From the NCBI GenBank assembly GCA_016931315.1, contig JAFGFB010000035.1:1-49901 (forward strand): a stretch of DNA of 49,901 nucleotides, written 5' to 3'. The notes below the pieces were generated by a model, which worked only from the letters and a program-made list of their open reading frames with translations, ran no database searches and was not told the DNA's origin. Below, one piece after another: positions 26,150 to 47,752 of this stretch. A program made the position numbers and the translations under genes. Position 1 is the stretch's first letter; the number at the start of each line of letters is the position of its first letter. The stretch is from Anaerolineae bacterium. Lineage in GTDB: Bacteria; Chloroflexota; Anaerolineae; B4-G1; SLSP01.

Positions 26150-26157
26150 TCGTGAGT

Positions 26158-26179
26158 GCTTCTCCGGCGCTGGAGAAGC
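26158..26179 (+). terminator. Stem-loop after GNAT gene
   Basis: GCTTCTCC (26158-26165) and GGAGAAGC (26172-26179) form an 8-bp stem with a 6-nt loop just after the GNAT stop. No T-run follows, so it may only be a 3' stabilising hairpin. Confidence 0.4.
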
Positions 26180-26189
26180 GCGAGAGTTC

Positions 26190-26198
26190 TGCTAGAAT
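26190..26198 (+). promoter_or_regulatory. Extended -10 promoter of isochorismatase-GNAT gene
   Basis: TGCTAGAAT matches TGnTATAAT in an extended -10 setting. The expected start gives a leader of about 23 nt to ATG 26228, including AAGGAGG (26217-26223). Confidence 0.5.
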
Positions 26199-26227
26199 GT
26201 TCGTGCTTTGTGATTCAAGGAGGAATG

Positions 26228-27313
26228 ATGGGTGAGTCAAGTGAACGACGGTTGGCAAAGATAGAGCAGGCTGTGACTGCTTTGCTGGTTATTGACGTGC
26301 AACAGGGGCTTTTCGAGAAAGTTACACCGATTTACAAAGGGCCGCAATTACTTCAAAACATCAACACCCTCATCGTCAGCGCCCATCTTTCCGGCGTGCC
26401 GGTCTTCTACGTGCAACATTCTGACCAGAAAACCCTGGTGAAGGGATCTCCTGAATGGCAGCTGCACACGCAACTTGGCCCGTTAAACCAGGATTCCATC
26501 ATCCACAAACAACACGGGAATGCTTTCGAGGAGACGGCTCTGGATGAAGCGCTACGTTCGAGAGGTGTCACCACCGTGGTGGTGACGGGCTTGGTTACCC
26601 ATGGTTGTGTGCGTGCTACCTGCATCGGTGCGCGGCAATTGGGATACCGGGTCATCCTGGTCACAGATGGTCACAGCAGCTTCAGCAAACAAGCCTCAAA
26701 ATTGATCGAGGAGTGGCATCAAAAGCTGGCGGCTATCGGTGTTGAATTGTATGCAACCTCGGAGATTGTATTTAGTTTGAATATTCGTGAAGCGACGGTA
26801 GAAGATTCCCGGGAGCTAGCCCACATTCAGGTGGATAGCTACCGCCGGGCGTATGCGGGGATTTTTCCGCAGGCTTATCTGGATGCTTTCACCTATGAGG
26901 AGCAGGAACAAGATTGGTGTGATCTTCTCACCTCGGGGCTGCAGGATATACTCCTTGTCGCTGAGCTGCAATCTGGAAAGCTCGTTGGCTACGCGCTCGG
27001 CAGGCCTGGCTTTGCCGAAGTCCTACCTTATGATAGCGAGCTGGTGGCACTGCATGTCCGACGCGAATTTCAGGGGCAAGGTGTGGGACAGAAACTGGCT
27101 CTAGCCCTTGCCCGGGCACTGAAGCAACGGGGCTGCACCTCGCTCATGGTGTGGGTGTTGGAGCGGAATCCTGCACGCGGATTCTACGAGCGGCTCGGCG
27201 GTCAGCTGTTGGATGTCCGGAAAGATATTCAGGAAGCCGTGTTTGAAGTGGCTTATGGGTGGGCCACTCTTGAGAGTCTGTTTGCGGAGCGTCTGGAATC
27301 ACCCAGTGGCTAA
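26228..27313 (+). CDS. Isochorismatase-like cysteine hydrolase fused to GNAT acetyltransferase
   Basis: Two-domain protein of 361 aa. Residues about 10-175 are an isochorismatase-like hydrolase with the Asp-Lys-Cys triad at Asp23 (LLVIDVQQG), Lys94 (IIHKQHGNAF) and Cys127 (VTHGCVRAT). Residues about 185-345 are a GNAT domain starting NIREATVEDSRELAHIQVDSYRRAY, with the acetyl-CoA loop RREFQGQGVGQKLALALA and the end strand NPARGFYERLGGQLL. Both active sites look intact. Cysteine hydrolases of this group act on nicotinamide-, isochorismate- or carbamoyl-type amides, so hydrolysis followed by acetylation of the released amine is conceivable but not shown. ATG 26225 and ATG 26228 are both near AAGGAGG; the second has the better spacing. 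Confidence 0.92.
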   Translation: MGESSERRLAKIEQAVTALLVIDVQQGLFEKVTPIYKGPQLLQNINTLIVSAHLSGVPVFYVQHSDQKTLVKGSPEWQLHTQLGPLNQDSIIHKQHGNAFEETALDEALRSRGVTTVVVTGLVTHGCVRATCIGARQLGYRVILVTDGHSSFSKQASKLIEEWHQKLAAIGVELYATSEIVFSLNIREATVEDSRELAHIQVDSYRRAYAGIFPQAYLDAFTYEEQEQDWCDLLTSGLQDILLVAELQSGKLVGYALGRPGFAEVLPYDSELVALHVRREFQGQGVGQKLALALARALKQRGCTSLMVWVLERNPARGFYERLGGQLLDVRKDIQEAVFEVAYGWATLESLFAERLESPSG

Positions 27314-27412: not shown

Positions 27413-28321
27413 ATGACTATTCAATTTCGTCACTACCATCATGCCAGCGATTATGCCTTGGTGAGCGATTTCCTCATCACTCACTACCAGCCTGACAATC
27501 AGGACGGCAACTGGATCGAACCGGCTTGGGAGTATATGCACTTCCATCCGGCGTTGGATGCTGCCAATATGAATCGGTTCGGGATTTGGGAGGAGGCGGG
27601 GGGAATCGTCGCGGTGGTCCACTATGAATGGCATTTAGGGGAAGCTTTCTTCCAGTTTCATCCTGCCTATCGCCATTTGCGCGTTGAGATACTGGATTAT
27701 GCCGAAGCCAATCTGCTGGGGATTTCGCGCCGGGATGGGCGACCGTACCTGCTTGCTTATGTCAATGATACCGATCCGGAATTCCTGGCGCTGGTGCAGT
27801 CGCGTGGCTATACCAAAGAACCTGATGAAACACGTCCCATGTCCGCTTTCGACATTCCCGACCCCTTTCCCCCAATCCCGTTGGCTGAAGGCTTTCGCCT
27901 GACCAGCCTGGCGGAAGAGTGCGATTGGGCAAAGGTTCACCGGGTGCTGTGGCGGGGCTTTGATCACGGGGATGACGTGCCCATGACAGATGAAGAGCTC
28001 GAGAGCCGGCGCCGCATGTTCGATACGCCCAAGGCGCGGCGTGACCTGAAAATCGCCGTGGTCGCCCCGAATGGGAATTTCGTTGCCTTCTGCGGCATGT
28101 TCTACGAACCCCAGGGGAGATTTGCCTATGTTGAGCCTGTGGCCACCGACCCGGCTTATCGCCGTTTGGGCTTGGGCCGGGCGGCAGTGCTCGAGGGTAT
28201 CCGGCGTTGTGGTGCTCTGGGAGCAACTGTGGCTTATGTCGGCTCGGATCAACAGTTTTACCGGGCCATTGGTTTTCGCCGGGTTTATGATACTGAATGT
28301 TGGGTTAAGGTTTTCGCTTAG
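27413..28321 (+). CDS. Tandem GNAT acetyltransferase
   Basis: Protein of 302 aa made of two GNAT-like halves. The N-terminal half (residues 1-145) is degenerate. The C-terminal half (about 150-302) has a full acetyl-CoA loop VATDPAYRRLGLGRAAVLEGI and QQFYRAIGFRRVYD at the end. AAGGAG and GGGACC precede ATG 27413. This is the last chromosomal gene before the tRNA-Val remnant; the next 490 bp hold no intact gene. Confidence 0.9.
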   Translation: MTIQFRHYHHASDYALVSDFLITHYQPDNQDGNWIEPAWEYMHFHPALDAANMNRFGIWEEAGGIVAVVHYEWHLGEAFFQFHPAYRHLRVEILDYAEANLLGISRRDGRPYLLAYVNDTDPEFLALVQSRGYTKEPDETRPMSAFDIPDPFPPIPLAEGFRLTSLAEECDWAKVHRVLWRGFDHGDDVPMTDEELESRRRMFDTPKARRDLKIAVVAPNGNFVAFCGMFYEPQGRFAYVEPVATDPAYRRLGLGRAAVLEGIRRCGALGATVAYVGSDQQFYRAIGFRRVYDTECWVKVFA

Positions 28322-28392
28322 AGTGCGCTTCGTAGTCCCTGGCGTCTTGTTGGCTGAGACGCAGATTTTGTGAGGCGAATCATTCTCAACAC

Positions 28393-28424
28393 ATCAGCCC
28401 CCTACACACCGGTAGGGGGCTGAT
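28393..28424. terminator. 13-bp perfect stem-loop next to the tRNA-Val remnant
   Basis: ATCAGCCCCCTAC (28393-28405) and GTAGGGGGCTGAT (28412-28424) pair fully around a 6-nt loop. It lies 16 bp beyond the CCA end of the tRNA remnant (minus strand) and 72 bp after the GNAT stop (plus strand). It could be the old terminator of the tRNA gene or that of the GNAT gene. T-runs are absent on both sides. Confidence 0.65.
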
Positions 28425-28439
28425 CAATATCTGCAGTCT

Positions 28440-28484
28440 TGGTGGGCGAGCAGAGACTCGAACTCTGGACCTCACGGATGTGAA
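28440..28484 (-). tRNA. 3' half of tRNA-Val(CAC), attachment-site remnant
   Basis: On the minus strand the bases read as anticodon loop TTCACAT (anticodon CAC), 3' anticodon-stem strand CCGTG, variable loop AGGTC, T-arm CAGAG-TTCGAGT-CTCTG (perfect 5-bp stem, canonical loop), acceptor 3' strand CTCGCCC, discriminator A and encoded CCA. Upstream of the loop the stem should read CACGG but reads CACTA, and no D-arm or GGGCGAG acceptor strand is found. The gene is therefore only its 3' half, broken at the anticodon stem, as left by tyrosine-recombinase integration. The element must lie on the side of the missing 5' half, that is to the right. Confidence 0.88.
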
Positions 28485-28510
28485 TAGTGATGCACGTATG
28501 AGAGCACCAA

Positions 28511-28549
28511 AGAGCACACGGTACCATTCTATTGGCATCCGTGTGCTCT
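28511..28549. repeat. 11-bp inverted repeat between att remnant and integrase stub
   Basis: AGAGCACACGG (28511-28521) and CCGTGTGCTCT (28539-28549) are perfect inverted repeats with a 17-nt spacer; a partial third copy AGAGCACC is at 28501-28508. It may be the terminator of the integrase gene (minus strand, followed by TTTGG) or a recombinase/excisionase arm site. Confidence 0.6.
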
Positions 28550-28593
28550 GTTATCTCTATACAGCCGTGTGTAGTGCCACAGCGCTCAGGTGT

Positions 28594-28695
28594 CTACCGG
28601 ATCAACTTGCCATGAACTGCCACGCAATCTTCCGCCGCGACTTTGGCGTAGTGTTTTACCATCCACAAATCCTGATGTTCAAGGATCACTCGTCT
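28594..28695 (-). pseudogene. C-terminal stub of a tyrosine recombinase (integrase)
   Basis: A 33-codon fragment, too short for usual gene calling, ends at TAG 28596-28594. It reads ILEHQDLWMVKHYAKVAAED in its centre. This matches the box II end of phage integrases (LGHxxLxxTxxY): His is followed nine residues later by Tyr, the exact spacing of the catalytic His and the nucleophilic Tyr, and the AEDC segment fits the typical C-terminal helix. The Gly of LGH is Glu. An in-frame TAA lies directly upstream, and no earlier integrase sequence was seen, so the rest is lost. It faces the tRNA remnant 110 bp away. Confidence 0.75.
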
Positions 28696-28718
28696 TTAAA
28701 TGACTTCCCAAAAAGGTC

Positions 28719-28763
28719 TTGACAAAACTATATCGTATGGTAATATATCAATATCTGATATAT
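28719..28763 (+). promoter_or_regulatory. Strong sigma-70 promoter with overlapping operator for PadR gene
   Basis: TTGACA (28719-28724), a 16-bp spacer and TAATAT (28741-28746) form the best promoter in the window. ATATATCA (28743-28750) and TGATATAT (28756-28763) are perfect inverted repeats with a 5-nt spacer covering the -10 and the start region. PadR proteins commonly repress their own operon through such AT-rich dyads, so autoregulation is likely. Confidence 0.75.
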
Positions 28764-28812
28764 CACATTCTGTTATAACGAGAAATGACATAGAAGACAA
28801 GAGGACAAGAAG

Positions 28813-29133
28813 ATGACCCAAACGAACGATTTAGAGAAATATCTACCCTTATCAGAGACTAACATCTACATCTTGCTCTCGCTGGTTCAACCGCTACACG
28901 GCTACGGCGTGATGCAGCATGTCCAACAACTCAGCCAGGGCGCGCTGAGCATCGGGCCGGGCACACTATACGGTGCATTTTCGACTTTCGAGAGCGAAAA
29001 GCTGATCGAAATGGTCGGCGAAGAAAACCGTCGCAAAATCTATGTATTGACCGTAAAAGGCCGTCAGGTGTTGGACCTACAGGCTCAGCGTCTGGCTATC
29101 CTGTATCATAATCTGCAAGAAGTATTAAGTTAA
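28813..29133 (+). CDS. PadR family transcriptional regulator
   Basis: Winged-helix regulator of 106 aa with SETNIYILLSLVQPLHGYGVMQ (N-terminal helices), the recognition part GALSIGPGTLYGAFSTFESEKLIEM and the wing RRKIYVLTVKGRQVLD, followed by a C-terminal dimerisation helix. Members often sense drugs or phenolic compounds and repress exporter or DUF2812 operons. ATG 28813 has GAGG eight bases before it. A dyad overlaps its promoter. The DUF2812 gene follows after 14 bp. Confidence 0.94.
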   Translation: MTQTNDLEKYLPLSETNIYILLSLVQPLHGYGVMQHVQQLSQGALSIGPGTLYGAFSTFESEKLIEMVGEENRRKIYVLTVKGRQVLDLQAQRLAILYHNLQEVLS

Positions 29134-29147
29134 GAGGAGAGAACACA

Positions 29148-29678
29148 ATGAACCCTATCATCAAACAACGCCAATGGTTTTGGGCCTGGCAAGACGACAA
29201 ACAAGAAGCCTGGCTGCACGAAATGTCACTGAAAGGCTTGCACTTGGTTAATTTCCAGAAAGGAGCTTATCACTTTGAACAGGGTGAGCCGAGGCATTAT
29301 GCGTACCGGCTGGATTACCGCGACTTGACGGCAAATCAACAGGAATACGAACAACTCTTCGCCGATGCGGGTTGGAAGTACATCGGTTCGATGGGCGGTT
29401 GGGAGTATTTCCGCAAAGAAGCCGCGCCCGACAGTATGCCCGAAATCTACACCGACACAGAGTCGAAAATCCAGAAATATCGGCGGCTGCAATGGTTTTT
29501 CGTGCTGTTGTTGCCCTTTCTCTGGATCACCTTTCCGAATTTCGATTTCGAGTACACTTCACTTTTTCGGTTGGCAACCCATCTCTTTCATCTGGTTGGC
29601 TTCTGCCTGCTGGCAGCCCTTTTGGGGTGCAACCTGTGGAAACTGGAACAGCGCATTCAACAACTCAAGCGACTATAG
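29148..29678 (+). CDS. DUF2812 membrane protein
   Basis: Protein of 176 aa. The first 100 residues are the soluble DUF2812 domain (WAWQDDKQEAWLHEMSLKGLHL, then YRLDYRDL, QLFADAGWKYIGSMGGWEYF). Two hydrophobic helices follow at about 118-138 and 145-165. GAGGAGAG precedes ATG 29148. In many bacteria DUF2812 genes follow PadR genes; the protein may be the envelope-side partner or sensor in that pair, but no mechanism is known to me. Confidence 0.88.
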   Translation: MNPIIKQRQWFWAWQDDKQEAWLHEMSLKGLHLVNFQKGAYHFEQGEPRHYAYRLDYRDLTANQQEYEQLFADAGWKYIGSMGGWEYFRKEAAPDSMPEIYTDTESKIQKYRRLQWFFVLLLPFLWITFPNFDFEYTSLFRLATHLFHLVGFCLLAALLGCNLWKLEQRIQQLKRL

Positions 29679-29694
29679 GAGAGACTTGTCATGC

Positions 29695-30477
29695 TTACGT
29701 CAACACCTGCGCCGCTGCTGCACCGGCCAGCCGCGCCAGCGTCGCTTTCACCCGGCTACTACGTGGCAAAAAGTCGAACGTGCAGCCGGGAGCCAACCAG
29801 CCCTGCGCTTGCCACCAGGCCTGATCATACGATCCTGGCGGCTCGCGCTGCCAGGCCAACTGCTGCACCTTGAAGGCCAACAGGGAGACAAACGCAGGGT
29901 TCTGGGCTTTCTGTTGGGCAATGGTGTTGAATAGTTTATCCGCTGCCTTGTCCGCAGCCGGTTGGTAGCGCGGCAGTTCGTCCGCTGAGGCCAGCGCGCC
30001 CATTTTTAACCCCGTTTGTCCCACCAGATGATAGCCCCAGGTGAGCAGCGCCGCGTTCATTGTGCGCAGGGTGTGACCGGTAGCGCCGCCGCCGACTGTG
30101 GCAAGCGGATAGGCGCACTTGCCGCCCATCGCTGGGCGGTGGCACAGGTAGGCCAGGCGATCCATCCAATTCTTGACCAGCCCGCTCAAATCATCCACGT
30201 AGACGGGGCTGGCGAGGAGGAGGCCATCGGCGGCGTCCATCTTAGCGCGGATGAGCGGGATGTCATCCTTGAGTGGGCAGGCGTCCTCGCCGCGATCAAA
30301 GCACGCGCGACACCCCCGGCACGGGCGGATGTCCATATCGCTCAGGAAGAGCATCTCGAATTCCAGCGGCGTGGTGTGCTGCGCAGCCAATGTCTGCATC
30401 CGCGTCCCGATCATCTGCACGACACGCGCCGTGTTGCCTTTTTTGCGGTAACTGCCAATACAAGCTAATATCTTCAT
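29695..30477 (-). CDS. Flavodoxin-like NAD(P)H-dependent FMN reductase family protein
   Basis: Protein of 260 aa. Residues about 1-180 form a flavodoxin-like fold: ILACIGSYRKKGNTARVVQM binds the FMN phosphate, LASPVYVDDLSGLVKNWMDR is the second conserved segment. The Cys cluster Cys53-x2-Cys56-x2-Cys59...Cys67 is typical of the iron-sulfur flavoprotein/reductase group. The last 80 residues are a helical extension. The open frame runs far upstream through the SDR gene in another frame; the real start is ATG 30477 (or 30489), just after the SDR stop. It is the last gene of the leftward run and converges with the DUF2812 gene at 16 bp. Confidence 0.88.
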   Translation of the reverse strand: MKILACIGSYRKKGNTARVVQMIGTRMQTLAAQHTTPLEFEMLFLSDMDIRPCRGCRACFDRGEDACPLKDDIPLIRAKMDAADGLLLASPVYVDDLSGLVKNWMDRLAYLCHRPAMGGKCAYPLATVGGGATGHTLRTMNAALLTWGYHLVGQTGLKMGALASADELPRYQPAADKAADKLFNTIAQQKAQNPAFVSLLAFKVQQLAWQREPPGSYDQAWWQAQGWLAPGCTFDFLPRSSRVKATLARLAGAAAAQVLT

Positions 30478-30500
30478 TTGAACACCCATCTGGTGCGTTA

Positions 30501-31280
30501 TCAGGCGCGCGCCATCAGATATTTGCCAATGCGCGTGACTAACCGGCGCGGGGTGAACCGAATGGAAAGCGCCAGCAGTTGGTTGAACAGCCCCGGAATG
30601 ACGGTGGTTTTGCCCTTCAGCAAACCGGCGTATCCGACTTTTGCCACCTGCCGCGCCTCCATGGTCCCTGCGCGGAATAACCGGATGTCCTCGATGCCGG
30701 CGCGGCTGGCAAAATCGGTTTGGGTTGCGCCGGGGCAGAGGCAGGTCACCGAGATGCCGGTATGCTCCAAATCCCTGGCAATCGCCCCCGAAAAACTGAG
30801 AACGTAGGCTTTCGTTGCACAATAAATGGCGTTGAGGGGCGCCGGGGCAAAGCCGCCGGTCGAGGCCACGTTGAGGATGCGCCCGCTGCCACGGTGGAGC
30901 ATCTCTGGCAGCAAGAGCATGATCAGGTGTGTCAACGCGGTCAGGTTCACCTGGATGAGGGCCAACTGTTGGGCTACGTCGGTATCCTGGATTGGCCCAT
31001 ACACCTGTGTGCCAGCGTTGTTCACCAGGAAATCCACCGTGATGTCCTGGGCTTTGAGCGTTTGATAGATCACCTCCGGCGCGGTGGGCTGCGCCAAGTC
31101 TTGGGGAATCACGGTCACATTGACGTTGTACTTCGCTCGCAGGTCTGCGGCCAGAGACTTTAGCCGCTCTTGGTCGCGGGCCACCAATGCCAAGTTGACG
31201 CCATCCTTGGCGAACAACGGCGCCAATTCTCGCCCGATGCCGCTTGATGCTCCTGTAATCAAAGCTGTTTGTCGTTTCAT
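30501..31280 (-). CDS. Short-chain dehydrogenase/reductase
   Basis: Classical SDR of 259 aa: NAD(P) site TGASSGIG (residues 9-16), NNAG (87-90), and the catalytic Ser140-Tyr153-Lys157 in AIYCATK. Arg after the first strand (LVARDQERL) favours NADPH. The C-terminal region resembles the DltE/estradiol 17-beta-dehydrogenase-like group. AAGGAG precedes ATG 31280. The flavodoxin-like gene follows after about 11-23 bp, so the two are probably co-transcribed. The substrate is unknown. Confidence 0.94.
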   Translation of the reverse strand: MKRQTALITGASSGIGRELAPLFAKDGVNLALVARDQERLKSLAADLRAKYNVNVTVIPQDLAQPTAPEVIYQTLKAQDITVDFLVNNAGTQVYGPIQDTDVAQQLALIQVNLTALTHLIMLLLPEMLHRGSGRILNVASTGGFAPAPLNAIYCATKAYVLSFSGAIARDLEHTGISVTCLCPGATQTDFASRAGIEDIRLFRAGTMEARQVAKVGYAGLLKGKTTVIPGLFNQLLALSIRFTPRRLVTRIGKYLMARA

Positions 31281-31397
31281 AAGCTATATCTCCTTTTCTT
31301 GGTGCTGCGAAGATCACTGAAAAAACACCATTCAAATCCTACGTCCATATCTATGTTTCAGCCAACCGTGTTGCACTTATCAGTTCCAATAGATACC

Positions 31398-32267
31398 TCA
31401 ACGCGCCAACCACTGCGCCAGAATAGCGTTGTACTCGGTTGCGCGCTCGGCAAAGGGCAGATGCCCCGCCTCAGCAATGACGGCTAATTCAGCACCCTCG
31501 ACCAGGTCGGCGATCTGCTGCGCCTGCGCAGGCGGCACGGTAGGGTCGCGGTCGCCAGTCAGCGCCAGGAGCGGTGCGGTGATGCGCGGCAGCCAATCGC
31601 TGATGTCAATTTCTGGCATCCGGGCAAAGTAGTGTATCATCGCATTCAAATCAAGCTGCTTGAAAGCCGGGTAAGCGCGGCACAGCATATCCGGTAAATC
31701 AGGATAGGCGTAAAACGCGCGCGCATCGGCAACGTAAATGCGCATAGCGGATTTGAGCAGGACCGGCGACAAGCCGGACAGTTTGTAGAGCGCCTTGTAT
31801 ACGGCGCGCCCCGGCGCGCCGCTGCGCACCAGCTTTTGATACAGGCCCAACGCGCCCGTCCAACATCCCTGCGCAAAGCCGGACACGCTGATGACGCGTC
31901 GCGCCAGGGCTGGCGTAGACGCCGCTACCGCTAGCGCCGCAAATCCGCCGGTAGAATGGCCGATGAGCGTGACGGGGCGGTCGTCCACCAACTCGCGAAT
32001 CGCTGCGCTCAATACGCGGGCGATCATCTCGGCGGTGAGCGCCTCGGGCTGCAAACCGGCGGGAAAGGTTGCCGGGAAATGTCCTGGCAGGCTGAGCGAA
32101 TAACACGGCCCTTGCGCCAGCACGCAGGGCGGTTGAAGCGCCCAGGCATAAATTGAACTGGTGATCCCATGCAGCAAAATCACCGGTTCGCCAGGTGCGC
32201 CGGGGTTCAGGCAAACTGCGGCCAGTTGGTAGTCGTCAACGGTAAGTGGAATATGCACAGATGTCAT
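31398..32267 (-). CDS. Alpha/beta hydrolase
   Basis: Hydrolase of 289 aa with oxyanion motif HGITSS (33-38), nucleophile Ser105 in GHSTGG, acid Asp239/Asp241 in TGDRDPTVP and His269 in AGHLPF. A helical cap lies between about 130 and 220. ATG 32267 is used because the longer version would start from a TTG with no ribosome site; even here the site (AAGAGAT) is weak. An esterase, lactonase or haloalkane-type activity cannot be told apart. Confidence 0.92.
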   Translation of the reverse strand: MTSVHIPLTVDDYQLAAVCLNPGAPGEPVILLHGITSSIYAWALQPPCVLAQGPCYSLSLPGHFPATFPAGLQPEALTAEMIARVLSAAIRELVDDRPVTLIGHSTGGFAALAVAASTPALARRVISVSGFAQGCWTGALGLYQKLVRSGAPGRAVYKALYKLSGLSPVLLKSAMRIYVADARAFYAYPDLPDMLCRAYPAFKQLDLNAMIHYFARMPEIDISDWLPRITAPLLALTGDRDPTVPPAQAQQIADLVEGAELAVIAEAGHLPFAERATEYNAILAQWLAR

Positions 32268-32370
32268 GAAGATCTCTTGTTCTAACTTGGAGTGCTTCAA
32301 AGCCGGTCATCGAATTTACCGGATAATCATCAGTTCATTTATCAACTCGGCCATGCTGCGCCGATGATGG

Positions 32371-32577
32371 CTACAGATTTACGCATGTCTTTTGCTCATC
32401 CAGGCTTCCAGATATCGCCCGGTTTCGACCCCGCCCCAAACGCCAAAGAAAAAAAACCAGAAAGGGCAGGATTTGGGTATCCAGGAAAAAACTGGCAATC
32501 AAACTGCCCGGGGAGAGCAGGATGAGGGCACTGCCAACGATCAAGTGTCCCTTGGTGGCCTGTGGATGGATTTTCAT
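32371..32577 (-). CDS. Small membrane protein
   Basis: A 68-aa protein with two hydrophobic stretches (GHLIVGSALILLSPGSLIA and TQILPFLVFFLWRLG) and a polar C-terminal tail. ATG 32577 has GAAGG five bases before it. It lies 65 bp after the ICMT-like gene on the same strand. No family recognised. Confidence 0.55.
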   Translation of the reverse strand: MKIHPQATKGHLIVGSALILLSPGSLIASFFLDTQILPFLVFFLWRLGRGRNRAISGSLDEQKTCVNL

Positions 32578-32642
32578 ACTACCTTCTTTTTGATTATGAT
32601 GAATGATGAAAGATAATGCTGACCACTCTTGCGTTAAGCATA

Positions 32643-33131
32643 TTACTTGCGCCCAAACCATCGGTTAACCGACGCTGTATACATCTCATATTCGCTGCCA
32701 AATTTCCCGGCCAGGTAGTGCTCTTCAGGCAGGATAAGGGCGTAATGGCAGAGCGCCATCGAGACGATGAGCATGACTACCGACCAGGGCAGGTTGAAAG
32801 TGAGCGCAATTCCGAACAAGAAAATGCCCGCTCCAAGATAGAGCGGATTCCTCGACAATGCAAACACGCCTGTCTTGATGACCCGGCTGGTGGGGTGGCC
32901 GGGGTCGGTCGGTTGACCGTAGCGGGAAAATTCCCGGCGCGCCAGGACAAGCAAAACCAACCCCACAATGCCCAGAAGGGCGCCCGCCGGGATGAGGGTC
33001 TGTCTCAGGATGTCCGGTGGGGATGAAAACGGCCAGATCAAGTGCAGGGCCAGGCTGGCAAGGAAAGGGATTCCAAAAACAACTTCCCCAATCCTCCAGC
33101 GGCTTGTATGGGCAGAGTCATGGCTTTTCAT
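32643..33131 (-). CDS. Isoprenylcysteine carboxyl methyltransferase-like membrane protein
   Basis: Integral membrane methyltransferase of the ICMT/PEMT type (162 aa, four to five helices). The SAM-binding signature is at the C-terminal side: RNPLYLGAGIFLFG and PEEHYLAGKFGSEYEMYTASVNRWF. Bacterial members methylate small lipidic or isoprenoid-type acceptors; the substrate here is unknown. Its ATG overlaps the stop of the glycosyltransferase gene (ATGA), so the two are translationally coupled and may act on the same molecule. Confidence 0.9.
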   Translation of the reverse strand: MKSHDSAHTSRWRIGEVVFGIPFLASLALHLIWPFSSPPDILRQTLIPAGALLGIVGLVLLVLARREFSRYGQPTDPGHPTSRVIKTGVFALSRNPLYLGAGIFLFGIALTFNLPWSVVMLIVSMALCHYALILPEEHYLAGKFGSEYEMYTASVNRWFGRK

Positions 33132-34333
33132 AAAACCTCTTCAATCAACCGCACCGCTTCCGTTACCCCATCTGGCTCGGCGCGGATGTCGGCGTCCAGG
33201 TCGGCGGCTTTACGGCGCATTTCGGGCGATTGCAACGCGCGCAGGGCCTCGGCCAGGTTTTCGGCGGTGAGTTTCGGACGCGGGATGGGCTGCGGGCCGA
33301 TGCCCATTTGCACCACTTTGCCGCCCCAAATGAACTGGTCAATGATGTGGGGGATGACCAGCATGGGAATCCCGGCGCGAAAACCGGAAGCGGTCGTGCC
33401 AAAGCCGCCGTGATGGACCAATCCGCTGGCGCGCGGCAAGAGCCAATCGTGCGGAATCGAACCAGCGTGGAAAACACTGGGGGGAATCGCCAACTGTTTC
33501 ATTGCCTCGTCCCAGCCCTGGATGACGGCGCGGAGGCCAGCCTGTTTGACCGCTGCGAGGGCGATTTGCGCGCTCTGGAGGGTGTCCTTGCCGCTGAGCG
33601 CCATCGCGCCCAGGGTAATGACCACCGGCGGCTCACCGGTCTCGAGGAAGGCGACCAGGTCGGCAGGCGGCGTCCAGGTGGTGGGGGCCGGGGCGAACCA
33701 GTAACCGGTCATGCAGTGGCGCCCCTCCCAGAGCGGGTTGGGTGGGGAAATGTGTGGGCTGAGCGGAACCAGGTTCAGCGTCGGGGAGGTGATACCGGTC
33801 GGACCCATCGGGGGCAGGCCGACCCGTTTGCGAATCTGGTTGAGCGGGCGGGTCATCAGCAGTCCCATCCCTGCCCCGGCCACGCCCATCAACATCCGCT
33901 TCAGGAAAGAATCCTGGGGGTCTTTGACCGGGATAGCCTCCGGCATAAGCGTAACGCTGGCGGTGGGCAGGCCGAGTTGGTCGGCCTCCATGCTCCCGCC
34001 GGCTGAGTGTGAGACGATGATCAGATCGGCGGCGCGGCAGAGTGCAAGCACGTCGCTATGGGATTGTTCGAGCATGGCAAACGAAAAGCGCATCACCCGC
34101 ATAAAGCCAAGCATCCAGTGTGGGGCGTTGGCGCGGATGCGGGCGGCCTCGTGGCTGATGTCAATATCCGGTCCCATAGGGGCGAAATGCACGCCGTAGG
34201 ATTCGACCAGTCCGCGCATACACGGGTGGCTGGCGAGGGTGACGGCGTGCCCGGCCTTGTGCAGGCCAAGCGCCAGAGCAATGTACGGCTGCACATCGCC
34301 GCGCGTGCCGATGGTGGGGATAACGATGTTCAT
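33128..34333 (-). CDS. UGT/MGT-type glycosyltransferase (GT1 family)
   Basis: GT-B glycosyltransferase of 401 aa. The N-terminal acceptor domain begins IVIPTIGTRGDVQPYIALALGL, like sterol and macrolide glycosyltransferases. The donor domain ends with HHGGFGTTASGFRAGIPMLVIPHIIDQFIWG, the family's nucleotide-sugar signature with HGG and the DQ pair. Such enzymes add sugars to sterols, macrolides, flavonoids or other lipophilic aglycones, for biosynthesis or detoxification. GGTGA lies before ATG 34333. It is coupled to the ICMT-like gene. Confidence 0.93.
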   Translation of the reverse strand: MNIVIPTIGTRGDVQPYIALALGLHKAGHAVTLASHPCMRGLVESYGVHFAPMGPDIDISHEAARIRANAPHWMLGFMRVMRFSFAMLEQSHSDVLALCRAADLIIVSHSAGGSMEADQLGLPTASVTLMPEAIPVKDPQDSFLKRMLMGVAGAGMGLLMTRPLNQIRKRVGLPPMGPTGITSPTLNLVPLSPHISPPNPLWEGRHCMTGYWFAPAPTTWTPPADLVAFLETGEPPVVITLGAMALSGKDTLQSAQIALAAVKQAGLRAVIQGWDEAMKQLAIPPSVFHAGSIPHDWLLPRASGLVHHGGFGTTASGFRAGIPMLVIPHIIDQFIWGGKVVQMGIGPQPIPRPKLTAENLAEALRALQSPEMRRKAADLDADIRAEPDGVTEAVRLIEEVL

Positions 34334-34397
34334 CCAATGTCACCTTTCCGTTCCAGATGGCGAAAGAACGCGATGGTCAATCCCATATTCTTTTATC

Positions 34398-34428
34398 GGG
34401 TAGGCGACGGCAATAACATCGCCTACCC
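34398..34428. terminator. Stem-loop between ino1-like and glycosyltransferase genes
   Basis: GGGTAGGCGA (34398-34407) and TCGCCTACCC (34419-34428) form a perfect 10-bp stem with an 11-nt loop, 62 bp after the stop of the inositol-phosphate synthase gene. There is no clear T-run on the minus strand, so it may attenuate rather than stop transcription into the glycosyltransferase gene. Confidence 0.5.
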
Positions 34429-34489
34429 CACAATACTCGGTTTGCGCGACCCGAACTTGCACGTAGACAGTTATCACATCGATATGCTG

Positions 34490-35581
34490 CTATCTGTTTT
34501 CTTCTGCGCCTCCGATGAACGCATCGAGCTTGTTTCGCGCCTCGTCATCGCTGAACTGAGCAGGTGGCGATTTCATGAAGTAGGACGACGGCTCGACGAC
34601 GGCACCGCTCAGCCCGCGATTGAGCGCGATTTTGCAGCAACGCACGGCATCAATCACCACCCCGGCCGAGTTGGGGCTGTCCCACACCTCCATCTTGACC
34701 TCCAGCTTGAGCGGCACCTCGCCGAACGTTGTACCCTCCATCTGGATATAGCAGAACTTGCGATCCGTCAGCCACGGCACATAATCCGAAGGCCCCACAT
34801 GGATGCTCTGCGGTGGCAGTTTGAAATCTAACTGGCTGGTCACAGCATCCGTCTTGGAGATTTTCTTTGACTCTAGCCGCTCCCGCTCTAACATATTGTA
34901 GAAATCCATATTGCCGCCAAAGTTGAGTTGATAAGTACGATCGAGGCGCACACCTCGCTCGCGAAAGAGATGGGTCAACACGCGATGGGTAATCGTTGCG
35001 CCAACCTGGCTCTTGATGTCATCGCCTATGACCGGCAGGCCGCGCTCCTTGAACCGCTCTTGCCAGTAGGCCTCGCGGGCAATAAAGACCGGAATGCAGT
35101 TGACAAAACCGCACCCGGCATCCAGAACCTGCTCAACATACCACTTGGTCGCCATCTCACTGCCAACCGGCAAAAAGTTGATCACCACGTCGGTTCCCGT
35201 CTCTTTGAGGATGCGGACAATGTCGTCGGTCGGGCCGGGTGCCTTGGTGATCACCTGCGAGAGGTACTTACCCAGCCCATCGTGGGTCATACCACGATAG
35301 ACCTTTACCCCCATATAGGGTACTTCGGTAAACTTGATGGTGTTGTTCGGCGGTGACCAGATCGCCTCGCTCAGGTCGAGTCCCACCTTGTTCTGGTCTA
35401 TCTCAAACGCGGCGGTGAACTCGATGTCGCGCACGTGATAGCCGCCTAGGTTGACGTGCATCAACCCGGGAACAAAGGCGTCATCTGGTGCATCTCTATA
35501 AAAATGCACCCCTTGCACCAGGGCAGCGGCGCAATTTCCCACGCCAATGATCGCAGTACGCACCTTATTTCGTTTTGCCAT
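34490..35581 (-). CDS. ino1: Inositol-3-phosphate synthase
   Basis: Protein of 363 aa, the length of the actinobacterial/archaeal type, which converts glucose 6-phosphate to inositol 3-phosphate with NAD. The Rossmann motif [15 protein letters not shown] is at the start. Active-site segments [34 protein letters not shown] (Asp-Asp-Ile-Lys-Ser-Gln) and [12 protein letters not shown] are intact. ATG 35581 follows AGGAGG; upstream in-frame codons lack a ribosome site. The product could feed phosphatidylinositol, di-myo-inositol-phosphate or a glycosylated inositol; the following glycosyltransferase and ICMT-like genes hint at a lipid or conjugate. Confidence 0.94.
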
Positions 35582-35961
35582 TGCTTGATTACCTCCTATG
35601 TTGTGATCTGAATCAGTATCTATAGAAATTCGTCTCCATAACGAGTCTCTCTTGGCCACTATCTCGCCTCCCACAGACTCTAACCGATAGCGCTTTTTAT
35701 CGACAAAAGACCACCTCCCCGGTCGTTTTGGCTATAGGATTGGGCTTGAGCCGCGCCATCTTGCTGGCATGTTTGGCGAACAATGCCTCAGTGAGAATAC
35801 CTTTGTCTTGCATAACCTGGTAGAGGCATACCCGGCGTCGCTCCAACTGCTGTTGAGCGCGGCTAGGTCTTTGGCTACCTTGATGCGAAAGTCGAACTTA
35901 GCTGTCGTGATCCCCATGGTACAAAGGTGGTCGAAACGCCCGGTAAAGCCGAGGCTGTTGT
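35582..35961. other. Region of 380 bp without an intact gene
   Basis: The first part is the leader of ino1. From about 35697 to 35850 the minus strand has an open stretch (LERRRVCLYQVMQDKGILTE, then ALFAKHASKMARLKPN) ending in TAA at 35699, without a start or ribosome site. It reads like a protein C terminus and may be another gene remnant. No family is recognised and no clear promoter is seen. Confidence 0.35.
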
Positions 35962-36657
35962 TCAGACGATTGAAAAAGGTCTTCGTCGATCTCCTTTCCA
36001 CAACCCCCAACCGAGAGGGAACAAGGCCGCCAGAAACAGGATGCCGCCAATCATCACGCCCTGGGACAGCAACATGCTGCCGGTCAGCGTGCCGATCATG
36101 CCCAGGATGCAGGTCACGCCGTTCAGCGCCAACAACACCCCACCCCAGTGCAGCGCGCCGGAGCGCCGCCACAGCAACGCGCCGTAAAGCATAGACGGAA
36201 TTCCCAGAATGGCGTAGGCTAACCTGTTGAAGAATACCATCGCCGATTGTGGCTAGGCTCGCAAGGTTAAACGCAGCAGCATATCTGCCGCAGCGGTGTA
36301 CTGCGGGTCGAGGCGCAGCGTCACCAATGCTGGAACGAGCGTCACCTGCGAGAGATAGGCGACCAGGTTGAGCACACCGTAAATGGGGGTGAAGACCAGC
36401 CCGATGACGATCCAGCCGGGGGCTGTCGGCTTGAGCCAGGCATACAAGACGGCAAACAGAGCTATGGCGGCCACGGTCAACAGTGCGACGTTGAGATAAG
36501 TGGCGTAGAATAACCCGTGCAGTCGTGCGGCGTGGGTAAGCACCTGCTCGAAGGTTTCCAGCCGCCCGGTGGTCGCCATGTCGGTGATCAGCAGGCCGAG
36601 GCACAGGACAGTGAGCATCAAGCAAACCAGGCAAAGGACGGCGGCAAGTTTAGACAC
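35962..36657 (-). pseudogene. Multi-pass membrane protein gene interrupted by an in-frame TAG
   Basis: The minus strand encodes one continuous membrane protein of about 231 codons with six to seven helices, broken by TAG at 36255-36253. Both sides are in the same frame: ...MLLRLTLRA-stop-PQSAMVFFNRLAYAILGIPS... A CAG (Gln) to TAG change would explain it. The start is GTG 36657 after GAGGAA. Without readthrough the product ends after about 134 residues; a second fragment could start at ATG 36240 but has no ribosome site. The layout is like DUF4386-type proteins, but this is a weak match by eye. It follows the serine hydrolase gene by 17 bp. Confidence 0.75.
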
Positions 36658-36674
36658 GGCTTCCTCAACTCTTG

Positions 36675-37748
36675 TCAACTAACGGCGCGAACCAGGTTCA
36701 TCATGAAGAAAAGTGGTCTGGGCGGGGTAATCACGTTGAGGGTCCCGGTCAGGTAGAGCGACCGCGACGGGCAGGCAAAGGCGAACGATCCGGTCGAGCC
36801 GGAGTGGCCGACGAATTCCGGGAGCGGGGTGATCCAAAAGAAACGCGGCAACTGAAAGTACATCATCCCGTAGCCGTAGCGGAGCGGGAAGAAAATCTTG
36901 TTCCAGGTCATCATCCGCGTCAGAAAGGCTTTGTCAAAGAGCCGCCCCTCCATAAAAGCGCGCAGGAATGTCATACATTCGGAAGCCGTCGAAACCAGGC
37001 CGCCATCAGATACATTGGACGAAAGGTATTGGGGGACATTGACTGGAGCTTTGTTCAAATAGAGCGTGGCAGGCGCATCAGCCGGGCGGGGCTTGGTCCA
37101 GTCGTAGAGATAGGTGCGCTGTAAGCCAAGTGGTGCACAGATGCATTCCGCGAAATTGACTGCCATGGGTTTTCCCGTGATGGCCTCAATGATTTCACCA
37201 AGCAGGCGGTAATTGAGATTGGAGTAATAGGCCCTGCCGGGTGCGCCGGGTGGAAAGTGTGGGGACAGGATGCGGGTGATCCTGAGCGCCTCAGCAGTAT
37301 CGATGTAACGGTCGTGACCGGATGTCAATTCAGCGATCACGCTTTTGCCGCCGCGCGGTTTATCGGCCTCGAAATCTGCCAGGCCCGAAGTCTGGCTGAT
37401 CAATTGGGACACCTTGAGCTGATAGCTGTAGTCTATCCCCTTATAAATGTGTATCCCATCTAGCATTGCGTCCGGCAGATATGCCGAGACCGGCGCTTCG
37501 AGGTCCAGTTTTTTCTCCTCGTACAACCGCATGATGATAGCCGCGGTGTACATCTTGGTGACACTGGCAATGGAGTACGGCGTGTCGGGTGCCATCGGCG
37601 CGTCGGTGCCGGGATCGGCTATCCCTGCTGCGCCAGCGAAATCGAGGCTGCGGTTGTAGGACTGTACCGCCACGACGATGTTGCGCAGGCCGCCTTTGCC
37701 AACCTGAGCGGCGAGCAGAGATTGCAGTTTTTTGGTTTTGTCGGTCAT
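36675..37748 (-). CDS. Serine hydrolase, beta-lactamase/class C PBP-like
   Basis: Protein of 357 aa with the serine beta-lactamase-like fold: SxxK at Ser62-Val-Thr-Lys65 (SIASVTKMYTAA), YxN at Tyr175-Ser-Asn177 (YYSNLNY), and the HxG motif GHSGSTG near residue 320. No signal peptide is seen, so it is probably cytosolic. Members include esterases, D-aminopeptidases and beta-lactamases; the C-terminal end with hydrophobic NVITPPRPLFFMMNL is unremarkable. ATG 37748 follows AAAGG. Activity towards antibiotics cannot be judged from the sequence. Confidence 0.92.
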   Translation of the reverse strand: MTDKTKKLQSLLAAQVGKGGLRNIVVAVQSYNRSLDFAGAAGIADPGTDAPMAPDTPYSIASVTKMYTAAIIMRLYEEKKLDLEAPVSAYLPDAMLDGIHIYKGIDYSYQLKVSQLISQTSGLADFEADKPRGGKSVIAELTSGHDRYIDTAEALRITRILSPHFPPGAPGRAYYSNLNYRLLGEIIEAITGKPMAVNFAECICAPLGLQRTYLYDWTKPRPADAPATLYLNKAPVNVPQYLSSNVSDGGLVSTASECMTFLRAFMEGRLFDKAFLTRMMTWNKIFFPLRYGYGMMYFQLPRFFWITPLPEFVGHSGSTGSFAFACPSRSLYLTGTLNVITPPRPLFFMMNLVRAVS

Positions 37749-37838
37749 CGTTTTACCTTTCAGTTTCTTCTCCGTTCGCAATGCCACTCTGACATACGAG
37801 AAAATGCCACCCATGATGCCCCATTCTTCTCGATACGC

Positions 37839-38328
37839 TCAACCTTCCGGCAACACGCGCGGAATGGGACGCATCTCATCCACACACCAGGTCAGCACGC
37901 GCCGCCAGGAAAAGCCATCCTGTTCCTCCAACGACCCCAGCAAACGCGGCTCGCGCCGCCCGACGCGCGCCAACGCACACAAGCCCGCCGCCAAGAGTGG
38001 ACGCGGCGGCAGCCCCAACGGGCCCCGTCACCAGAATGTAATCGAACGTTTGGTCGGGAAAGGGCAAACGGGTCACGTCGCCCTGAACCAGCAGCGCTGG
38101 TAATAGCCCCGCCTGATCGACCCGCGTCAGCATCGGCGGAGCCAGGTTGAGCGCGTACACGTCCACGCCGCGTTGCCGCAGGGTCAACGCCAGCGAAATC
38201 GTGCCGCAACACGCCTCCAACATCCGCCCGGAGACGCCTTCGGCGATAGCGGCTTGCTTGTCCGTCTAGCGCCGACTGCGCAGGGCGTCGTCGTAGAAAT
38301 GCGCTACACGACTCCAAAAGGTGTTCAT
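37839..38328 (-). pseudogene. SAM-dependent methyltransferase gene with nonsense and frameshift
   Basis: From ATG 38328 the frame reads MNTFWSRVAHFYDDALRSRR, then a TAG at 38268-38266, and goes on in frame through GRMLEACCGTISLALTLRQRG (SAM motif I), VYALNLAPPMLTR and VTRLPFPDQTFDYILVTG. Near 38010-38025 the sense jumps to another frame (LLAAGLCALARVGRREPRLL and on to RVLTWCVDEMRPIPRVLPEG) and ends at TGA 37841-37839. The normal protein would be about 160-165 aa, short for the family. Both lesions must be repaired to give a product, so the gene is dead unless sequencing errors explain them. Confidence 0.8.
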
Positions 38329-38405
38329 CTCATAGCTTCTTGAAGGATATCGTGTAAGCGGACCACTTTCCAAAGAACGCTTGCACAACCAAGACCGTTA
38401 ACCTG

Positions 38406-38615
38406 TCATCCGCGTCCTGAGCGCATGCTGTTTGAGAATTGGCGGTCTGTCACTCTCTCCGGGTCGGTTTCGTTGCCTTTTGTAAAGCGGGCTTCCAGTT
38501 CCCACAGTTCAGGTTGGCGTCGAGGGGGTGAGATTCTGTTGCGCAGACTAGCGAACATACGCTTCAAGCCTGCAATCGCTTTTTGAAAAGTGGTTCCAGA
38601 TGACTCGACTTTCAT
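38406..38615 (-). CDS. Small basic hypothetical protein
   Basis: A 69-aa protein rich in Arg, Ser and Glu (FASLRNRISPPRRQPELWELEARFTKGNETDPERVTDRQF). ATG 38615 is preceded by GGAGG at good spacing, which is the main reason to accept it. It has no hydrophobic segment and no recognised family. It lies between the esterase gene and the broken methyltransferase gene. Confidence 0.45.
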   Translation of the reverse strand: MKVESSGTTFQKAIAGLKRMFASLRNRISPPRRQPELWELEARFTKGNETDPERVTDRQFSNSMRSGRG

Positions 38616-38708
38616 GTTGTCCTCCAAGTCAACAGCAGAAAGAACGCCTCAGTACCTAAAAAAACATCTACAGGAAGCGATGTTTTGCAAAGCCTCCCAA
38701 ACATCGTT

Positions 38709-39650
38709 TTATGGGTGTGGATGCGCGGCGAAAAAGTCCCATATCACCTGCGAAGCGTTCAACTCGGTCGTCGGAACGTCACCGCCCTTCCAACCCGGCT
38801 GACCACCTGGCCAGGCGTGCCCGCTGCCGACCACGGTGTACAGTTCCACCGCTGCATCTTGCTGGCAGCCGTTGTAGACGGTGTGACGGATGCTGCCGTT
38901 CTGTGTGACCTGGGGCGTCGAAGCACAGCCATTGTGCCCCACCCAGAACTCTATCGTCGTCTCGACCGGCTCGAAGGGGATGCCCACCAGCGATTCCGCG
39001 CCGACCCCGCCTGCGTAAGGCGCGTGTTTGTCGGCGTCGCCGTGGATGTGCAGCACGGGCACCGGGCGCGACGGCGTGCAAGCGTCGAGGTTCTGCGTCG
39101 CCGCTACCGGGCCGATTGCGGCGATCACGTCCGCTAACTCGCAGGCCAGGCGGTAGGACATAATCGCCCCATTGGACATGCCGGTGGCATAGATGCGCCG
39201 CGCGTCCACGTTGGCAATCGCCTCCAGATCAGCCAGCAGCGCACGCACAAAGCCCACGTCATCCACGTTCTGCTCCATCGCATAACCACAGCAGCGCCCG
39301 CCGTTCCAGGTGAGCAGCCGGTCTGACCGCCGCCCCGTGCCGTTCGGATAGACGACGATGAACCCTTCGGCGTCGGCGACGGCGTCGAAGCCGGTCATCG
39401 TGCGAGCATTCTCGGCATAGCCGCCCCCGCCGTGAAAGACCAACACCACCGGCGTCGCCCGCGCCGGGTCGTAACCGGGTGGGACGTGGACGATATACGA
39501 ACGCTCGCGCCCGGCGTGGGTCAGCGTGCGGGTTACGTCGCCGGGCGACAAGGCCGCCGGCGTGCGTGCGGCCTGGCGCGCTGCCAGCCGACCACAGCCG
39601 GTCAGCCACAACCCACATAGCAGGAACAATAAAAATACGCGACGGTTCAC
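38709..39650 (-). CDS. Secreted LpqC/PHB depolymerase-type esterase lipoprotein
   Basis: Protein of 313 aa. A lipoprotein signal peptide ends in the lipobox LTGC (Cys19). The mature part is an alpha/beta hydrolase of the poly(3-hydroxybutyrate) depolymerase/feruloyl esterase group (LpqC): oxyanion HGGGG (73-77), Ser159 in GMSNGA, Asp205 in IHGDADKH and His278 in GSGHAWPGG. Paired Cys residues (Cys120/121, 170/191, 242/262) suggest disulfides and support export. GTG 39650 begins right after the TGA of the MGMT-like gene with GAGGAT before it, so the two are coupled. Confidence 0.92.
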   Translation of the reverse strand: MNRRVFLLFLLCGLWLTGCGRLAARQAARTPAALSPGDVTRTLTHAGRERSYIVHVPPGYDPARATPVVLVFHGGGGYAENARTMTGFDAVADAEGFIVVYPNGTGRRSDRLLTWNGGRCCGYAMEQNVDDVGFVRALLADLEAIANVDARRIYATGMSNGAIMSYRLACELADVIAAIGPVAATQNLDACTPSRPVPVLHIHGDADKHAPYAGGVGAESLVGIPFEPVETTIEFWVGHNGCASTPQVTQNGSIRHTVYNGCQQDAAVELYTVVGSGHAWPGGQPGWKGGDVPTTELNASQVIWDFFAAHPHP

Positions 39651-40160
39651 TCAGGCATCCTCGAAATTGCAGAACAGCACATCCCGATACCCCAGGACGT
39701 AATACCGCTTGCCTTTTTGCGCGACGGCAAACCCTTCCGCTTCTAGCAACGCTTTGTGCGCCTCAGCGCCGCCGGGGAATTTCTCGTTCAGATAGCCATC
39801 GGCTTTGAGCGTCCGCCAGTAGGGGATGTCCAGGTCACAGCCCTCTTGTTTGGCTTCTTCGACGGCGTTGGCGGCGGTCATAACGAAAATGCCGGCGGTC
39901 AGCGTACAGCAGCCCTTGGCCTGGTACTTGTGGGCCAGCCAACGGCACATCTCGATGAGTGTGGTCAGGCGGCCTGGCGGCACCTGCCGCATCAACGCCG
40001 TCACATCGCTGGGATTGACCAACACCACCGGATCGCCGGCCTCTGCCCCCATCTTGTGGACGGCATTGTAACAGGGGAAGCCCGCTTGCAGGGCGATTAC
40101 CTTGGGATAGCCGGGCTTGTCGGCGAGTTTCTCTTGCCAGGTTTTTCGTTTCGCTGCCAT
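39651..40160 (-). CDS. MGMT-family (alkyltransferase-like) protein without catalytic Cys
   Basis: Protein of 169 aa. The part VPPGRLTTLIEMCRWLAHKY matches the DNA-binding helix-turn-helix region of O6-methylguanine-DNA methyltransferases, and DIPYWRTLKADGYLNEKFPGG aligns with the active-site strand (IPCHRV...G.L..Y..G). The acceptor Cys of PCHR is Tyr114 in PYWR, so alkyl transfer is not expected; alkyltransferase-like proteins that only flag damaged bases are known with Trp or Ala there. I recall similar proteins annotated only as MGMT family. It sits between an ABC permease gene (3-bp gap) and the esterase gene. Confidence 0.8.
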   Translation of the reverse strand: MAAKRKTWQEKLADKPGYPKVIALQAGFPCYNAVHKMGAEAGDPVVLVNPSDVTALMRQVPPGRLTTLIEMCRWLAHKYQAKGCCTLTAGIFVMTAANAVEEAKQEGCDLDIPYWRTLKADGYLNEKFPGGAEAHKALLEAEGFAVAQKGKRYYVLGYRDVLFCNFEDA

Positions 40161-40163
40161 TTG

Positions 40164-41393: not shown

Positions 41394-41404
41394 GAGATTC
41401 TCCT

Positions 41405-42676: not shown

Positions 42677-42737
42677 AGCGTCCTCCGTAGAGCAAAGATG
42701 CAGGATGCAAGATGCAGAATTTCCGTTCTTGCTTCTT

Positions 42738-43676
42738 TTAGTCCCGCAACGCCCGCCCGGTGAGGTGCAAAAATACCGCTTCCAGGTTCGGCTCGCGAAT
42801 GTCGACGCCGGTGATGCGCGCGCCGGCAATCGTAGCCGCCTCGAACAGACGCGGCAAGACGCGGTTGCTGTCGTCCACCAGCACCGTGACCAGCCCATCC
42901 TGGGCAGAAGCGCGTGAGACGCCCTCCACCTGCTGCCAGGCGGTCAGGACGCGCTCTGCGTCCACGTTCAGGGTCAGGTCGATGCGTGTCTGCTCGCCTA
43001 CCAGTTGAATCAGCTCGTCGTGTGTGCCGCAGGCGATCACCTGTCCGTGATCCATTATGGCGATGTGGTCAGACAACTCGGCGGCTTCTTCCATATAGTG
43101 GGTGGTGTACAGCACTGTCATACCCTGGCAGTTGAGTTCCTTGACGTTGTCCAGGATGTGACGGCGGCTCTGCGGATCAATGCCCACCGTCGGCTCATCC
43201 ATGATGATCACCTGCGGCTTGTGCAGCAGCGCCGCGCCGATGTTCACCCGCCGTTTCATCCCGCCGGAGAACTTTTCCACACACCCCTTTTGGCGGTCAG
43301 CCAGGTCGATGATCTCCAGCACCTCATCCACGCGCCGTTGGAGGACCGTGCCGCGCAACCCGTACATTTTGCCCCAAAAGAGCAGGTTTTCGCGCGCCGA
43401 GAGGTCGGGGTAGAGCGCGATGTCCTGCGGTACCACGCCCAGGCACGCTTTGGCCGCCTCCGGTTCGCGGTTAATGGAATGGCCCATCACCAGGGCATCC
43501 CCCTCGGTGGGAGCCAGTAGGCCGGAGAGCATAGAAATGATCGTGCTTTTGCCCGCGCCGTTGGGACCGAGCAAACTCAGGATTTCCCCGACCGGCGCGG
43601 TCAGGCTGACGCCTTGCACGGTGTGCAGGTCGCCGAATCGTTTGTGCAAATTCTGCATTTCGATAGCCAGCATCAT
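42738..43676 (-). CDS. DrrA/NatA-type ABC exporter ATPase
   Basis: ATPase of 312 aa with Walker A GPNGAGKST, signature FSGGMKRRVN, Walker B VIIMDEPTVGIDP, H-loop TTHYMEEA and tail LEAVFLHLTGRALRD. It is clearly related to the protein at 10606-11553. Two ATG codons (43676, 43673) follow GGGGAGAG; its start overlaps the end of the membrane-protein fragment upstream. With the two permeases it forms a complete exporter inside the integrated element. Confidence 0.95.
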   Translation of the reverse strand: MMLAIEMQNLHKRFGDLHTVQGVSLTAPVGEILSLLGPNGAGKSTIISMLSGLLAPTEGDALVMGHSINREPEAAKACLGVVPQDIALYPDLSARENLLFWGKMYGLRGTVLQRRVDEVLEIIDLADRQKGCVEKFSGGMKRRVNIGAALLHKPQVIIMDEPTVGIDPQSRRHILDNVKELNCQGMTVLYTTHYMEEAAELSDHIAIMDHGQVIACGTHDELIQLVGEQTRIDLTLNVDAERVLTAWQQVEGVSRASAQDGLVTVLVDDSNRVLPRLFEAATIAGARITGVDIREPNLEAVFLHLTGRALRD

Positions 43677-44002: not shown

Positions 44003-44008
44003 GTGCGC

Positions 44009-47749: not shown

Positions 47750-47752
47750 CTC

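Follow-up and report, generated by a model that had tools for sequence, protein, structure and literature searches.

The window, by which we mean the whole stretch of 49,901 bases analysed here, is all of contig C104 of a draft genome assembly (G000; 4,347,111 bases in 330 contigs, 88.8% complete) in which the binning of the window is uncertain. The same site was compared in four congeners, G001 to G004. A long resident block on the left ends at a piece of a tRNA-Val(CAC) gene, which is followed on the right by short inverted repeats, the end of a tyrosine recombinase (integrase) gene, and DNA that is not collinear with any congener. The features are:

51 to 28441, no strand assigned: resident block, collinear in G002 at 82-90% identity by block
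28393 to 28424, no strand assigned: terminator-like inverted repeat with 13-bp perfect arms (I5), in the resident flank of the core
28440 to 28441, minus strand: two bases that make a CCA look-alike, absent from the intact gene; both mismatches of the 45-mer fall here
28442 to 28484, minus strand: 3' part of tRNA-Val(CAC) from the anticodon loop onward, the putative attachment core at attR; 43/43 identical to the tRNA-Val gene on contig C23
28512 to 28521, minus strand: predicted integrase-binding site, an inverted copy (9/10) of the tRNA 5' anticodon-stem decamer
28539 to 28548, minus strand: predicted integrase-binding site, a direct copy (9/10) of the same decamer
28597 to 28695, minus strand: C-terminal remnant of a tyrosine recombinase, 33 aa, with a TAG stop at 28594-28596; called by profile and by identity to the G002 integrase
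28696 to 49901, no strand assigned: DNA without collinearity to the four congeners, a candidate element body of unproven extent

The final 83-87 bases of the window (49815-49901) were found at 9 more places in its own genome, some of them at contig ends, so contig C104 ends inside a dispersed repeat. In the resident block, a single ORF (26156-27310) encodes, in this order, an isochorismatase and a GNAT acetyltransferase domain; in G002 the two belong to separate ORFs. An inverted pair of sequences with 70% identity (10846-11252 and 43033-43439) lies in ABC-transporter gene regions, with one member in the resident block and the other to the right of the tRNA fragment.

An earlier note on this DNA had read bases 28440-28484 as the 3' half of a tRNA, from anticodon loop to CCA. 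A genome-wide search with these 45 bases, allowing up to 3 mismatches, returned the fragment itself (0 mismatches) and the second copy that this reading calls for, at C23:19008-19052 on the opposite strand (2 mismatches). The latter is an intact tRNA-Val(CAC) according to ARAGORN, and the Rfam tRNA model matches it too; the intact gene thus sits on contig C23 and the fragment on C104. Over 28442-28484 the two agree at 43/43 bases, far above chance, and identity sets in exactly where the anticodon loop, TTCACAT, opens. The start in the anticodon loop is therefore upheld, but the CCA end is not: since both mismatches sit at 28440-28441, and given how the intact genes end (CCCACTG in the own genome and in G001, and CCCACCTG in G002 and CCCACCTG in G003), the CCA of the fragment looks incidental. 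As the note had also claimed, the 5' half is missing; its best minus-strand match in 28485-31500 reaches only 17/32 bases, and a split or intron-bearing tRNA was rejected on this ground. ARAGORN called no tRNA over the window, Rfam gave nothing over the window at its gathering score, and at a lax threshold it gave two matches in 28200-28800, both at chance level. Folded alone, the 50-mer has modest stability (z -1.53), so the tRNA call rests on identity to the intact gene and not on folding. The hairpin at 28393-28424 resembles one after the intact tRNA-Val of G001, a likeness that is suggestive only.

The recombinase remnant matches positions 284-311 of a 320-position family profile (E 1.8e-5, with 7156 stop-to-stop segments from 12 contigs searched), for which 81 sequences were combined: 8 alignment rows, and those loci that are free of stops and reach 290 aa or more. 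It is identical to the complete G002 integrase at 20/27 residues, keeps the last ~30 codons, breaks off at 28695, and reads into the core. Between remnant and core lies a perfect 11-bp inverted repeat (I7, 28511-28521 / 28539-28549), which contains two mutually inverted copies of GAGCGCACGG, the decamer in which the tRNA 5' anticodon stem ends. These copies are predicted to offer the integrase additional places to bind next to the core; they span the attachment arm of the window (28512-28548), to the right of the fragment. On this side, toward the integrase, the arm sites exceed what 500 shuffles give (p 0.002), and in the 170 bases of resident flank to the left of the core there is none. Together with the position of the integrase tail, this asymmetry bears out the proposed polarity, by which the element lies to the right.

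Contig C155 of G002 is collinear with window positions 51-28686 (28.6 kb) and then carries a complete 330-aa integrase gene reading into the fragment. Contig C232 of G003 matches window 27484-28611 at 83% and has other genes past the arm. Relatives with conserved order across 28440 had been named as what would speak against an island; the order is indeed kept, to 28686 in G002 and to 28611 in G003, yet this does not refute an insertion, because the shared stretch includes the integrase end and the order breaks just beyond it. A 42-base core (28443-28484) is identical at this site in G000, G002 and G003, while the surrounding DNA is 82-88% identical. That the scar predates the split of the three species is a reading we have softened, for any insertion at tRNA-Val leaves a core and a resident flank, and only the shared arm argues for one old insertion. 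The arms of the window and G003:C232 agree at 90/111 bases, about equal to the similarity of the flanks, which suggests a single old insertion common to both. The G002 arm belongs to a separate and younger type (68/93 with the window, 99/99 with G003:C47). In G003:C232 (L029 2867-3105), an ORF ends on a stop that arises where the last integrase codons start, which looks like the outcome of a deletion that joined a different gene to the end of the integrase.

Around the intact tRNA gene the picture is more layered. A segment of G003:C47 that is 99.3% identical over 1673 bp to the G002 integrase end precedes another core copy; the order there is intact integrase, core, and then a stretch, H1, in which 6 arm-site matches fall at 3 places (mean over shuffles 0.30, p 0.002) and which holds decayed integrase pieces, whose profile matches are weak (65-114, E 0.013; 196-219, E 0.03). 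On contig C23 of the own genome, H1 follows directly after the intact tRNA-Val; counting the core, 262 bp agree with G003:C47 at 90%. A second H1-like copy, on contig C270 of the own genome, holds three integrase pieces (E 1e-4, 0.0021 and 0.047) and stops at the contig end ~10 bases from the expected core position. The intact tRNA is thus followed by a relic of the integrase-side end of a related element, which suggests that two or more elements have made use of this tRNA. A different stretch, X, follows the intact tRNA-Val of G002 and G003, and no arm sites were found in it in either genome; compared between the two, X alternates between identical and diverged segments but their integrase ends agree at 99.3%, so it is uncertain whether X is the other end of that element. 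In G001, about 170 bp separate the tRNA-Val from the opposite end of the resident block (window 51 to about 17354; G001:C265), which means that one of the two lineages carries this block inverted with respect to tRNA-Val. No tRNA-Val fragment was found in G001, where the intact gene is present but flanked by the other end of the block, and no tRNA-Val match in G004.

To the right of the fragment, 28560-44700 and 44000-49901 gave scattered matches only to the four congeners, the largest being 3.07 kb at 72% (G002:C197), 1.04 kb at 74% (G004) and 0.70 kb at 75% (G002:C16), as against 28.6 kb of collinearity on the left; a further match (0.75 kb, 74%) lies elsewhere in the own genome. A Pfam scan of 17 ORFs on this side found no mobility family. 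The non-collinearity fits an island, and the 21 kb remains a candidate for one element, but with the integrase cut and no mobility family in the 17 ORFs it does not establish one 21-kb element. The earlier claim that everything rightward, more than 21 kb, is the element therefore keeps the lack of collinearity in its favour, while the integrase cut at 28695 means that one element need not fill this DNA.

We consider it highly probable that the fragment is the attR scar of a mobile element with an arm-less, Xer-like tyrosine recombinase that integrated into tRNA-Val(CAC). The identity of the core, the integrase tail alongside it and the intact tRNA-Val(CAC) elsewhere in the genome all sustain the earlier reading of a 3'-half scar of tRNA-directed integration, as do the complete integrase at this place in G002, the second case in G013 and the tRNA-linked integrase loci described below; among the points against are that the remnant is only 33 aa and that an inversion must be assumed for G001. 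The scar is likely old and at a tRNA-Val hotspot that was used repeatedly. Strand exchange would have taken place in the 7-bp anticodon loop, where identity starts, with the anticodon stem presenting two inverted core half-sites. The element would have supplied a new tRNA 3' half while the old one stayed behind at 28442-28484, a later deletion would have truncated the integrase and so fixed the remains, and related elements would have reused the same tRNA, leaving an array of relics. In G003 the order would be tRNA, [X ... integrase], core, [H1 relic ...] ... [integrase tail], core, resident block, and that of G000 would be the same minus the youngest element. The contig breaks, with intact tRNA and scar on separate contigs, mean that the array order is only inferred.

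The earlier note pictured one island that fills 28485-49901 and continues beyond, with the intact tRNA-Val, which would be that of C23, at its other end. The scattered congener matches over 28560-49901 (none larger than the 3.07 kb at 72%), set against the collinear 28.6 kb on the left, would suit it, but the truncation at 28695, the 17 ORFs without a mobility family, the H1 stretch after the intact tRNA, which belongs to a related, integrase-first relic, and the second H1-like copy on C270, which points to more than one element, make it improbable. The arm sites of H1 and the integrase pieces in G003 and on C270 are more than a single element bounded by the C23 tRNA and the scar would account for, and that model was dropped. 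Serial use of one tRNA is the simplest reading of H1, X and the core copies. Taken as a whole, the earlier observation is confirmed and its interpretation partly supported: it has the kind of event and the polarity right but oversimplifies what the site contains.

The unchanged 42-base core in G000, G002 and G003, amid DNA of 82-88% identity, could also mean that the 43 bases are retained for a function of their own, for instance as a tRNA-derived small RNA or a decoy. With the 5' half absent, no Rfam family, and an intact tRNA-Val(CAC) present we hold this to be very unlikely; an unchanged core would also be expected if the site were reused for attachment or converted by the intact tRNA gene. 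Slimmer still is the chance that the tRNA piece was moved by a chromosomal rearrangement or an assembly error with no integrase involved: the assembly is a draft and the block is inverted relative to tRNA-Val in G001, but three genomes have the same core and flank, with integrase-end sequence on the same side in each. Integration at a reused tRNA-Val thus remains our preferred account.

A second case at tRNA-Val was found in another genus of the same family. In G013 an identical 51-bp repeat, oriented like the tRNA-Val, lies 12.5 kb downstream of it; next to the repeat stands TTTTTGAC, just as it does after the intact tRNA-Val in G020. The repeat lies 8 bases from the contig end, so this right end is provisional. 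G020 would be the empty site for this case, and G018 has a tRNA-Val fragment with a flank similar to that of the G013 repeat. The segment in between is:

L035 7437 to 19896 (G013:C9), 12.5 kb: DNA between tRNA-Val and its repeat

Nine of its ORFs were scanned, out of 20 that reach at least 120 aa when overlapping frames are counted; they gave restriction-modification, Peptidase_C39, TPR, NB-ARC and DUF1186/SEC-C families, three were without a family, and none was an integrase. The segment may be an island that was moved in trans. A tblastx comparison of the window with tRNA-Val loci of other genera found no common downstream gene order.

We turn to the integrase family and its targets. In Pfam the G002 integrase has a SAM-like and a Phage_integrase domain only, that is, the core-binding and catalytic domains of a simple tyrosine recombinase with no arm-binding domain. 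RKHRH-type residues and the tyrosine, read by inspection, are conserved in an alignment of 8 sequences. The protein falls below the NCBIfam Xer cut-offs (XerA, 153.7 bits vs 220; XerD, 141.1 vs 329.6; XerC, 135.3 vs 335.15), and its closest solved structures are XerC-like, XerA and XerD. How the directionality of integrases without an arm-binding domain is controlled is less understood than for that of lambda. A scan of genome contigs, taking the best 80 of 528 confirmed stretches, gave 79 loci; from their titles, we take 71 of the 79 to be Chloroflexota and 7 to belong to other phyla, and 1 has no assignment. With L085 and L078 added, 81 integrase loci were examined. An intact tRNA lies within 301 bp in 52 of the 81, and in 52/52 it is upstream of the integrase start on the same strand. 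The targets among the 52 are tRNA-Met(CAT), Pro and Val, with Arg(CCT) at a further locus, L080. The remaining 29, with no intact tRNA at this distance, include G002 and G005, where both integrases read toward a core.

The arms of these loci carry copies of the target tRNA stem. We took the tRNA-integrase gap plus the first 30 bases of the matched gene at 53 loci (the 52 and L080), reduced these by shared 8-mers to 37 non-redundant gaps (16 dropped), and counted, on both strands, every 10-mer that agrees at 8 or more positions with either the 3' or the 5' anticodon-stem decamer of the tRNA. There were 52 (3') and 26 (5') matches, 78 in all, with at least one in 29 of the 37 loci; dinucleotide shuffles gave 6.2 + 4.6 (10.8) and tRNAs of other amino acids 20.6 + 7.6 (28.2), a sizeable count, so part of the signal is a shared motif. 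Control decamers from the T-arm and from near the tRNA 5' end gave 7 and 0 matches. The 78 matches occupy 60 places, because the near-palindromic stem lets one place match both decamers; the controls were likewise counted as matches. The longest common substring averages 7.84 for the own stem vs 6.56 for tRNAs of other amino acids (Wilcoxon p 4.7e-5; 6.46 for the own T-arm), although such p-values overstate independence, the loci being related. By this measure only 13/37 single loci pass p 0.05, and at many loci some swapped tRNA scores at least as high as the own one. The pooled match counts are the stronger test, but at some loci (L112, L122 and L139) swapped tRNAs match better than the own one. 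The arms of the scar group (window, G002, G003 twice, and G005) have 3-4 matches each (p 0.002-0.014), and the G001 flank has 2 (p 0.2).

On our predicted reading, the stem copies would be the core site put to use a second time, in the arms; the hairpins in the arms possibly have other roles, such as termination. At two tRNA-Pro loci (L078 and L089) a GACCACACGG copy immediately adjoins the integrase ATG, a placement that could enable the integrase to switch off its own gene. We tentatively propose that a lineage of arm-less tyrosine integrases in the Anaerolineae makes its arms out of copies of the anticodon stem of the target tRNA, with the core half-sites recurring next to the core and, in some members, as far as the integrase start codon; a single DNA-binding domain would then serve for cutting, complex assembly and shut-off of its own gene, and a new target would need rewritten arms. 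In literature searches on arm or core sites we recognised no paper that describes such arms, although they may still have appeared in print.

As an event, the scar represents ordinary tRNA-directed integration in an uncultured member of the Chloroflexota, and relics at an apparently reused tRNA-Val help to order the events. The broader result is that integrases without an arm-binding domain have, on the element side, copies of the core site, and that these copies tend to change in keeping with the target tRNA. If the copies bind the enzyme, they would be a simple route to arms and self-regulation, and the target of an integrase could perhaps be predicted from the leader of its own gene.

The scar is of a known kind, and the arm design may be a variant. 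Set beside the tRNA-targeting tyrosine-recombinase elements of a review (PMC8371274), ours resembles them in having the recombinase at the site, a core that starts at the anticodon loop, a repeat of the tRNA 3' part and arrays at one locus; unlike them, the window element is decayed, its integrase is a tail only, and its arm imitates the anticodon stem. Simple tyrosine recombinases, as classified in PMC8138268, share the make-up of core-binding-like and catalytic domains only, with Xer matches below cut-off, but differ in that 52 of our 81 relatives lie just after a tRNA, across gaps with stem copies. IntS of the KplE1 prophage (PMC2951348) has separate arm-type sites and autoregulation at attL; there, as at our 52 loci, the integrase gene begins inside the attachment region beside the tRNA, whereas at some of our tRNA-Pro loci, such as L078 and L089, the core-stem copies extend up to the integrase start codon. 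The Dehalococcoides islands (PMC3146451) depend on a serine recombinase, with ssrA as the target and a repeat of 20 bp; like them, our elements are from Chloroflexota and form serial islands at one RNA gene with 3'-end repeats, but here a tyrosine recombinase acts at tRNA-Val, which sets the window element outside the ssrA type.
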